The position numbers were made by a program, and so were the translations under genes. Shown here piece by piece: positions 6,903-26,518 of a DNA stretch of 64,000 bases. The notes beneath the pieces are model-generated. The model was given only the letters and a program-made list of their open reading frames with translations. It did not search any database and was not told the origin of the DNA. Each line of letters begins with the position of its first letter. Position 1 is the stretch's first letter. Origin of the DNA: Nitrosopumilus oxyclinae (GTDB taxonomy: Archaea > Thermoproteota > Nitrososphaeria > Nitrososphaerales > Nitrosopumilaceae); assembly GCF_013407165.1 (NCBI RefSeq), contig NZ_CP026994.1, positions 496,001-560,000 of the forward strand, given 5' to 3'.

Positions 6903-7029
6903 TGGTCCCGCGGGACGGAATTGAACCATCGACAACCCGGTTTCTGTATGCCTGATGGGCTGTGTTTCGTTTAGCCATCTAAAGCCAACAACTACAGCCA
7001 GGAGCTCTACCAGGCTGAGCTACCACGGG
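6903..7029 (-). tRNA. tRNA-Tyr (GTA) with a 50-base intron
   Basis: On the minus strand, acceptor arm CCCGTGG pairs with CCGCGGG, followed by A73 and an encoded CCA (6903-6905). The D arm is GCTC/GAGC, the anticodon stem CCTGG/CCGGG, and the loop CTGTAG gives anticodon GTA. The T arm is GATGG-TTCAATT-CCGTC. A 50-base intron (6942-6991) sits at the canonical 37/38 position, to be removed by the archaeal splicing endonuclease. The C1-G72 pair is the archaeal tyrosine identity element. A run of six T follows the 3' end and probably terminates transcription. Confidence 0.93.
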
Positions 7030-23821: not shown

Positions 23822-24919
23822 TTAGAGAACTGGTTTAATTGCTCCTGATAGGAGTGCATGATCTGCTATTGTTAATGCCACAAGTGAATCTACTACTGGT
23901 GGAGCTCTGGGTACTACACATGGATCGTGTCTTCCTTTGACTTGTAGAATAGTTTCTTTTTTTGTTTTGATATCTACCGTTTTCTGCTTTTGAGCAATAG
24001 ACGATGCTGGCTTGAAAGCGATTCTCATTGTAATTGGCATTCCATTTGAAATTCCACCTAGAATTCCACCAGATCTGTTTGTTTCAGTAACGATTTTTCC
24101 TCTCTTTACTACATACAAGTCATTATTTTCAGAACCAAAAAGTTCTGAACCTTGAAATCCTGAACCAAATTCAATTCCTTTCACTGATGGAATTGAAAAA
24201 ATTGCTTTACTCAAATCTGATTCTAATGAACTAAAAATGGGTTCACCTAATCCTACTGGAACATTTGTTGTAACTGATTCAATTATTCCACCAAGTGAGT
24301 CGCCTTTCTTTCTTGCATTTAGAATGTTTTCTCTCATGGTTTTTGCTGTTTTAGTTTCTGGACATCTTACTTCATTTTTATAAATTGAATTAATCATTTT
24401 ACTATTGAATTCTTTTTCCATCTTTATTTTTCCAATCTGTGATGTGAATGAGTTTGTTTCAACACCTAGTGTTACTTTGAGTAATTTTCTTGCAATAGCT
24501 CCTCCCATAACATGGGTAGCTGTTAATCTACCTGAGAATCTCCCTCCTCCTCTGTGATCATTATAGTGATTATATTTTGTCATGGCAGGATAATCTGAAT
24601 GACCTGGTCTTAGCTTTGTTTTCAAATTTTCATAATCTTTTGATTTTTGATCACTGTTCCAAATTACCATTGTAATTGGTGCTCCTGTTGTATGACCTCT
24701 GAAAACACCTGAAATTATTTCAACTACGTCTCCTTCTTTTCTTTGAGTAGAGATTAAATTCTGACCTGGCTTTCTAAGGTCTAGCATTTTTTGAATATCT
24801 TTTTCATCGATTTCTAATCCTGCAGGACATCCATCTAAAACTGCCCCGATTGATTTTCCATGACTTTCGCCAAAACTTGTTAAAACAAGACGCTGACCAA
24901 TAGAACTTCCCGGCAACAT
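23822..24919 (-). CDS. aroC: Chorismate synthase
   Basis: 365 residues. Family signatures are clear: GESHGKSIGAVLDGCPAG at the start, RPGHSDYPAMTKYNHYNDHR with RGGGRFSGRLTA, and RHDPCVVPRAPPVVDS at the end. It converts EPSP to chorismate using reduced FMN. First gene of the minus-strand aroC-CM/AT-tyrA-nudix set, which is separated from aroA by a 330-base spacer holding an RNA candidate. Confidence 0.98.
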   Translation of the reverse strand: MLPGSSIGQRLVLTSFGESHGKSIGAVLDGCPAGLEIDEKDIQKMLDLRKPGQNLISTQRKEGDVVEIISGVFRGHTTGAPITMVIWNSDQKSKDYENLKTKLRPGHSDYPAMTKYNHYNDHRGGGRFSGRLTATHVMGGAIARKLLKVTLGVETNSFTSQIGKIKMEKEFNSKMINSIYKNEVRCPETKTAKTMRENILNARKKGDSLGGIIESVTTNVPVGLGEPIFSSLESDLSKAIFSIPSVKGIEFGSGFQGSELFGSENNDLYVVKRGKIVTETNRSGGILGGISNGMPITMRIAFKPASSIAQKQKTVDIKTKKETILQVKGRHDPCVVPRAPPVVDSLVALTIADHALLSGAIKPVL

Positions 24920-25249
24920 ACTATCAAAGTTATTTGATGTTTATAATTCCTCATTCTGAAATTTGTTGAAAATTTTATCATGAAATTGATTATTTTTTAC
25001 TTATACTTTACACCTGTTTAGAAATTATATTATTATTGGATAAAACATGAAATAATTATAATATATTCTTAAATATAATAATAACATACACAATATATGG
25101 TAAAACGTGTAAATTATAACAAATAGTTTGCGCGGCCCTGCGAAAAAGACATGTTATCACGCGAAAGCGTTGTGAGTGAGGAGAATGCTTTTCACTCTAT
25201 ACAGGGTCGCGCCTTTTATCTCCCTGAATAATTTTTTCTAAAAATAATA
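24920..25249. other. Long spacer between aroA and aroC
   Basis: The 330-base spacer interrupts an otherwise tightly packed cluster. It contains the RNA candidate at 25130-25212 and, on the aroC side, about 200 bases of extremely AT-rich DNA likely to hold the aroC promoter. No protein-coding frame is convincing. Confidence 0.6.
25130..25212 (+). ncRNA. GC-rich three-helix structured RNA candidate
   Basis: In otherwise very AT-rich spacer DNA, GCGCGGCCCTG (25130-25140) pairs over 11 bp with CAGGGTCGCGC (25202-25212). Inside are ACGC-GAAA-GCGT (25159-25170, a GNRA tetraloop hairpin) and GAGTGAG/TTCACTC (25174-25180 with 25191-25197). CTTTTATC follows on the plus strand, like a terminator, which favours the plus strand. 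On the minus strand it would lie in the leader of aroC, 210 bases upstream. No known family is recognised. Confidence 0.65.
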
Positions 25250-26518
25250 TCAATCAACTAAGATTTTTGCACCCATACGATTCATCTCCTCTACAAAATT
25301 TGGATATGAAACTTTGACTGATTCCGGATCTGTAACTGTACAATTACCAACATACATTCCTGCAATACAAAATGCCATGAATAATCTGTGGTCTTCTTCT
25401 GATATTAAATCTGCACCTGAAATATTTTCTGATGCTTCTAAAATCATACCGTCTTCTTTTTCTTGAATATTAATTCCAAGTTTTACTAATTCTCTTGAAA
25501 TGATTGCAATTCTATCTGTCTCTTTTAATCTTGCATGTTTTACATTAAATATTTCAATTGGTCCAGATGAACATAATGCCAAAATTGCAAGTGGTGGAAG
25601 AAGATCTGGTGAATTACTCAAATTAAATTTTCCTCCCTTTAGTTTTTCAGGAGATTTAATTTTGATTTGTTCATCATCCATCATTATTTGAACTCCTAAC
25701 TGTTCTAAAATATCTATAAACACTTCATCTCCTTGAGGTAAATTCCCCATGTTTCCCTTTATTGTAATGTCCTCACCGTTTAGAACAGTTGCAGAAAGAA
25801 GTAGTGCAAGACTTGAAAAATCTATTGGAACAGTAAATGTAGATTCTTTGTAAATTTGTGGAGATATGTTGTACCTTTTGTATGGAATTAGTGTTTGCAC
25901 TGTTACGCCAAACTTTCGCATTGTGGCAATTGTTGCATCAAGATATGGCTTTGATACTAGGTTTCCTTCAATGGTGAGATTGATTCCTTTCTCAGTTAGT
26001 GGTGCACAAATTAATAATGAAGAGATAAACTGGCTAGAAAAATTCCCTGGAATCTTTACTTCTCCTCCAATTATTTTTCCTTTAATTTTGATTGGCGGTT
26101 TTCCATCAGTTGAACTACACTGTGCTCCAATACTTGATAATGCATCTAAGAGGGGCTGCATTGGTCTTTTTTGTAAACTTGAATCTCCAGTTAGAGTGAT
26201 TTCCTCAGAATACAGACTTGCTATGCCTGAGGCAATTCTCATTGTAGTACCTGAATTCTCAGTATCAATTTCAGGTACTTTTGTGCCTATTTTTATTGGA
26301 TTTTTAACAATTATTGATGAATCAGCAATCTCAATTTCTGCTCCAAATTTCTTACATGTCTCAATTGTTGCTTTAGTATCTGCTGAGAGTAATACATTCT
26401 CTACAGTACTGTTTTTTCCAGCAAGTGATGCTAGAAAAATTGCTCTGTGTGTATAGCTTTTGTTTGGAGGACAAATTATCTGTCCTGTTATTTTTGATTT
26501 TTGAATTTTACACTTCAT
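25250..26518 (-). CDS. aroA: EPSP synthase (3-phosphoshikimate 1-carboxyvinyltransferase)
   Basis: 422 residues with the duplicated inside-out barrel. Key motifs: GQIICPPNKSYTHRAIFLAS at the start (PEP/S3P-binding Lys and Arg), ENSGTTMR, GDSSLQKRPMQPLLDAL, and RLKETDRI near the end. It adds enolpyruvyl from PEP to shikimate-3-phosphate. The start overlaps the shikimate kinase gene end by 11 bases. Confidence 0.97.
   Translation of the reverse strand: MKCKIQKSKITGQIICPPNKSYTHRAIFLASLAGKNSTVENVLLSADTKATIETCKKFGAEIEIADSSIIVKNPIKIGTKVPEIDTENSGTTMRIASGIASLYSEEITLTGDSSLQKRPMQPLLDALSSIGAQCSSTDGKPPIKIKGKIIGGEVKIPGNFSSQFISSLLICAPLTEKGINLTIEGNLVSKPYLDATIATMRKFGVTVQTLIPYKRYNISPQIYKESTFTVPIDFSSLALLLSATVLNGEDITIKGNMGNLPQGDEVFIDILEQLGVQIMMDDEQIKIKSPEKLKGGKFNLSNSPDLLPPLAILALCSSGPIEIFNVKHARLKETDRIAIISRELVKLGINIQEKEDGMILEASENISGADLISEEDHRLFMAFCIAGMYVGNCTVTDPESVKVSYPNFVEEMNRMGAKILVD

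Follow-up and report, generated by a model that had tools for sequence, protein, structure and literature searches.

The 330-nt spacer between aroC and aroA is the only large gap in the aro cluster, the next largest measuring 42 nt, and it holds a compact GC-rich segment (25130-25212) in the window, by which we mean the whole 64,000-nucleotide stretch of DNA analysed here. The original prediction offered two readings of this segment, an independent RNA on the plus strand followed by a T-run, or a leader element of aroC on the minus strand, and the question is which of them, if either, is right. The features of the locus, including those of the RNA that we call type 1, are as follows.

23822-24919, minus strand: aroC (chorismate synthase), the divergent neighbour (Pfam PF01264, E 4e-135).
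24940-24946, minus strand: TATA-like box of aroC, TTATAAA, between the RNA and aroC, 21 nt before the start codon.
~25047-25078, plus strand: putative promoter region, its TATA-like box being TTAAATA (25069-25075; near-fixed distance, conservation profile).
~25096-25221, plus strand: type-1 RNA, predicted transcript of ~125 nt with predicted ends (covariance model R3, conserved block).
25105-25154, plus strand: candidate pseudoknot, 25105-25109 with 25150-25154, joining the 5' leader and J1/2 (alignment).
25111-25129, plus strand: 5' hairpin P0, 25111-25116 with 25124-25129 (92.5% of cells paired).
25130-25212, plus strand: outer helix P1, 25130-25140 with 25202-25212 (99.1% of cells paired).
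25141-25157, plus strand: junction J1/2 with a near-invariant GAAAAA (alignments A4 and A6).
25158-25172, plus strand: hairpin P2, variable in sequence, with a GAAA loop in the window copy (91.2% paired).
25174-25197, plus strand: hairpin P3, 25174-25183 with 25188-25197, loop AATG (97.7% paired).
25198-25201, plus strand: junction J3/1, UAUA invariant (invariant columns in alignment A4).
25213-25239, plus strand: U-rich 3' end, with CTTTT (25213-25217) and TTTTTT (25232-25237) (sequence).
25250-26518, minus strand: aroA (EPSP synthase), the convergent neighbour (Pfam PF00275, E 1e-101).

Sequence inspection and folding recovered the predicted architecture, an outer helix of 11 bp enclosing two inner hairpins (25159-25162 with 25167-25170 and 25174-25183 with 25188-25197), one of them with a GAAA loop. 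The minimum free energy of the plus strand is -38.3 kcal/mol (z -5.8, equalled by 0 of 200 shuffles), while the minus strand folds less well (-31.0 kcal/mol, z -4.5); when both strands of the 64 kb were scanned in 12,785 tiles of 83 nt, nothing else proved as stable as 25130-25212. The fold described in the original prediction is confirmed. The G+C content of the segment is 53%, compared with 34% in the window and 17% in the remaining spacer; the description of the surroundings as more than 70% A/T holds for the spacer itself (83%), but not for the window as a whole (66%). The fold has the predicted extent, but the conserved unit is longer: it spans ~25096-25221, includes a 5' hairpin, and is preceded by a promoter region from ~25049. 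Conservation climbs at ~25049 and drops at ~25219, with 25049-25218 being conserved at the level of coding DNA.

BLASTN identified the type-1 RNA as a single copy per genome in 23 of the 61 genomes searched, all from the same genus, the matches being 87-96% identical to the window's copy. The covariance model found it in 108 of 250 genomes of the family, in five genera, again once per genome except for one genome with two contig-end pieces; the copy in the own genome scores 132.7 bits (E 4e-30) under model R3. The named records carrying type 1 belong to Nitrosopumilus and Nitrosarchaeum, where the RNA is linked to the aro genes, and to Nitrosotalea, which together with its relatives has a divergent type. 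Several complete genomes (e.g., G006, G022 and G165) lack type 1, which is therefore dispensable.

The pattern of substitutions was analyzed in a final alignment of 42 sequences and 33 base pairs. In this alignment, which the model adjusted to the structure, thereby flattering the counts, 96.0% of pair cells hold standard pairs and 21 of the 33 pairs have changes on both sides, compared with 10.9 in shuffles (0 of 500 had as many); when the partners were slid against each other as a control, only 32-54% were paired. Two-sided changes occur in all helices (4 of 6 pairs in P0, 6 of 11 in P1, 6 of 6 in P2, and 5 of 10 in P3; 42 sequences). A first alignment of 22 sequences had seven pairs changed on both sides versus 2.1 in shuffles, and earlier counts obtained with MAFFT only agree in direction with those from the final alignment. 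Covariation in related genomes, proposed as a check along with the original prediction, is thus present, the element being both conserved and subject to compensatory changes. An A/T-rich copy of the RNA (L082, 33% GC, from G085, a 1.2-Mb genome) retains 10 of the 11 P1 pairs with A-U replacing G-C, indicating that pairing, not G+C, is preserved.

The alignments also bear on the strand and on coding. In the 22 close relatives, one P1 pair is G-U on the plus strand in all 22, and two P3 pairs are G-U in 20 and 22, respectively; read from the minus strand, each of these fixed pairs would become a C/A mismatch, which identifies the plus strand as functional. A 26-codon frame starts from the ATG at 25151, and stops or shifts break it in most relatives; hence the reading as a small ORF was rejected, and the type-1 RNA is regarded as non-coding.

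Is the RNA tied to the aro genes? The type-1 locus is syntenic across four genera, and in most carriers the RNA lies upstream of aroC, which, together with the ability of the minus strand to fold (z -4.5), is what can be said for a cis-regulatory leader of aroC, a riboswitch or an attenuator, on the minus strand. However, a separate TATA-like box precedes the aroC start codon by 21 nt, as would fit a leaderless transcript, and most genomes without the type-1 RNA retain a comparable element. Twelve type-1-less genomes have no model match near aroC; the adjacency of aroA and aroC is kept in eleven of them, with spacers of 121-290 nt, and the spacer in the twelfth (G112) measures 894 nt. Conversely, in genus g35 (Nitrosotalea-type) neither aroA nor aroC is found near the RNA at any of the 22 loci, and all eight loci examined have a sir2 gene no more than 1.4 kb away from it. 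A riboswitch or leader would be expected in the 5' UTR and on the same strand as its gene; here the RNA is on the opposite strand and its context is not conserved. Given also that the fixed G-U pairs suit the plus strand only, we consider a leader of aroC extremely improbable, and this half of the original prediction falls. Two carriers have an aroA-aroC spacer of ~1.5 kb (L076 in G084 and L083 in G094), with an extra 350-aa gene between the RNA and aroC at L076.

The other side of the spacer could be invoked as well, because the RNA and aroA converge, with ~30 nt between the predicted 3' end of the RNA and the stop codon of aroA, as would suit a cis-antisense or terminator element at the aroA 3' end. 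But the RNA is kept beside unrelated genes in g35, aroA is retained in genomes without the RNA, sister RNAs exist at other loci, and a promoter and two inner hairpins would be superfluous for a terminator; such a role is highly improbable. Taken together, the anatomy of the locus and comparative genomics show that the RNA does not serve as a control element for the aro genes. The reading as an independent plus-strand RNA with a T-run, on the other hand, is supported by a promoter box of its own, the compensatory changes, the strand signal of the G-U pairs, and its retention in another gene neighbourhood.

The putative promoter is defined by the TTAAATA box, which is found 60-63 nt before P1, at nearly constant spacing, in 47 of 50 type-1 copies, and has 11 plus-strand occurrences in the whole 64 kb. 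The conservation profile is 0.83-0.86 in the promoter region versus 0.52-0.57 further upstream. The predicted transcription start is at ~25096-25100, ~26 nt after the box. At the other end, 49 of 50 type-1 copies are followed by TTT within 25 nt, and the U-rich stretch 25213-25239 likely serves as a termination signal. The conserved tip of P3, GAGAAUGCUUU, contains a tandem G-U. P0 could be extended by two more pairs (25109-25110 with 25130-25131), at the expense of the base of P1. A pseudoknot between the 5' leader and J1/2 is possible and is proposed tentatively for the Nitrosopumilus/Nitrosarchaeum-type copies: 92% of its cells are paired, with one two-sided change and with four rows unpaired at two pairs, and it is not evident in the Nitrosotalea-type copies.

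Searches with the type-1-only covariance model also picked up a second group of lower-scoring matches (25-36 bits), which we call type 2 and which in many cases lie in recurring gene contexts. Type-2 RNAs are ~135 nt long, type-1 RNAs ~125 nt. Both types have the TTAAATA box, an AATG...TTGCG 5' leader of about equal length, a 5' hairpin, an outer helix GCGYRRCC...GGRYYRCGCC enclosing two inner hairpins, and a U-run; in contrast to type 1, type 2 has an extra inner helix (GCAGAAC/GUUCUGC), an invariant GAGGnAAUCUC hairpin, another pairing of P0, and a wider spread. Eleven of the 28 type-2 pairs show two-sided changes, versus 5.1 in shuffles. All 58 genomes of the genus that are at least 90% complete harbor type 2, mostly in two copies, including genomes without type 1, so that where type 1 is present the usual count is three related RNAs per genome, type 1 once and type 2 twice. 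Of the two type-2 copies in the own genome, the one at C1:20419-20556 on the plus strand adjoins a short-chain dehydrogenase gene, and the other lies on the minus strand at C1:872542-872676. The weak model scores, combined with the shared layout, suggest that the two types are homologous, without amounting to proof.

Comparison with Rfam, likewise named as a check with the original prediction, matched neither type to any family. At gathering thresholds, the Rfam 15 scan of the window returned two tRNAs only; the best match of a relaxed scan at the locus reached 16.4 bits, where the gathering score is 65; and ten type-2 loci yielded nothing relevant at E up to 1. An Rfam tRNA match at 6906-7029 of the window (minus strand, 124 nt, 42.9 bits), which ARAGORN misses, is probably a tRNA gene with an intron. 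The archaeal SRP RNA (RF01857) and RNase P RNA (RF00373) are also independently transcribed structured RNAs, but they lie elsewhere (C1:117611-117922 and C1:993137-993415, respectively), and no covariance-model or ARAGORN match to SRP RNA, RNase P RNA or tRNA was found at the locus.

Archaeal H/ACA guide RNAs have an internal-loop guide pocket, a kink-turn or K-loop, and a 3' ACA box. The type-1 RNA resembles them in being small and having hairpins, and in many Nitrosotalea-type copies ACA follows shortly after P1; unlike them, however, it has a P1 that enters a three-way junction without a guide pocket, no kink-turn was seen in the alignments inspected, and the ACA after P1 is not consistent in the other genera. 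C/D box sRNAs carry a C box (RUGAUGA) and a D box (CUGA) near their ends, and inspection of the conserved 5' and 3' ends found neither. A parallel in kind is Tan1 of the marine group II Euryarchaeota (PMC5069720), which is also a lineage-specific structured archaeal ncRNA of unknown function from an abundant marine archaeon, but belongs to another phylum and, at 229 nt, is nearly twice as long. No published description of the type-1 RNA was found in the literature covered, which included few subscription journals, and earlier detection as an anonymous small RNA is conceivable. We rate the type-1 RNA as a new RNA family among lineage-specific structured small RNAs.

At the level of sequence, the locus is shown to hold a structured non-coding element on the plus strand, almost always single-copy, present across genera independently of its neighbours and preceded by a promoter-like box. 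With a probability of roughly 85%, we read it as an autonomous plus-strand small non-coding RNA gene, the type-1 member of a new superfamily; it has the promoter box, the 5' leader, P0, P1 with two inner hairpins, and the 3' U-run by which we propose to define that superfamily. We infer that this RNA would be transcribed and act in trans. A plus-strand transcript starting at the RNA's promoter and ending at the U-run would comprise a 5' hairpin plus a long closing helix that bears a three-way junction with two hairpins, and the rigid P1 with the junction would present the GAAAAA and UAUA strands and the P3 tip to a protein. In the most likely mode of action, to which we give slightly less than even odds, the type-1 RNA would be the RNA part of a ribonucleoprotein or a protein-binding regulator.

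Next in likelihood, and doubtful, comes a trans-acting antisense RNA whose J1/2 or 5' leader would pair with mRNAs. An independent gene with a promoter and a U-run, and the conserved unpaired stretches, would fit this role, and there is a precedent in haloarchaeal sRNA132 (PMC6560208), one of the intergenic regulatory sRNAs known in other archaea. However, J1/2 varies among genera outside GAAAAA, and much of the conserved sequence is located in helices and short junctions.

Returning to the protein-bound RNA, a switch based on the leader is conceivable, since P0 and P1 overlap by 2 bp and type 2 pairs its leader differently, but this is speculation. A bolder extension, which we consider unlikely, is that types 1 and 2 together make up a core RNA system in Nitrosopumilus-type ammonia oxidizers. 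Two or three paralogous RNAs per genome would share a scaffold and have divergent inner domains, and the 5' leader, by folding into alternative hairpins or a pseudoknot, would switch the state of a dedicated ribonucleoprotein. Such a system would function like 6S or 7SK RNA, yet it would be archaeal and would rely on a different RNA.

Ammonia-oxidizing archaea rank among the most abundant cells of the ocean and soil, and to our knowledge little has been recorded about their regulatory RNAs. The clean covariation, the RNAs' own promoters, the usual presence of two to three members per genome, and the occurrence of at least one type in every near-complete genome of the genus that was checked suggest a general cellular function, which could be tested in cultured strains. 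The covariance models supplied here would annotate the intergenic regions concerned.

Within the genomes searched, the superfamily is restricted to a single family of ammonia-oxidizing archaea, type 2 being the more widespread sister; sampling 400 genomes at the order level and 250 at the class level turned up neither type beyond this family. Compact GC-rich palindromic DNA within an A/T-rich spacer could also be a mobile element or the remnant of a repeat, but the RNA is single-copy in the own genome and in relatives, it is syntenic across four genera, its helices evolve by compensation, and there is no link to viruses, leaving this explanation a vanishingly small chance. The only pattern match in a viral contig was not confirmed by the covariance model, and a viral source was rejected. 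The bacterial pattern matches tested were due to chance, with the exception of one contig filed as a KSB1 bacterium (JAJDAE010000327.1, locus L207); it carries a full type-1 RNA scoring 139.7 bits and is probably a misbinned Nitrosopumilus contig.
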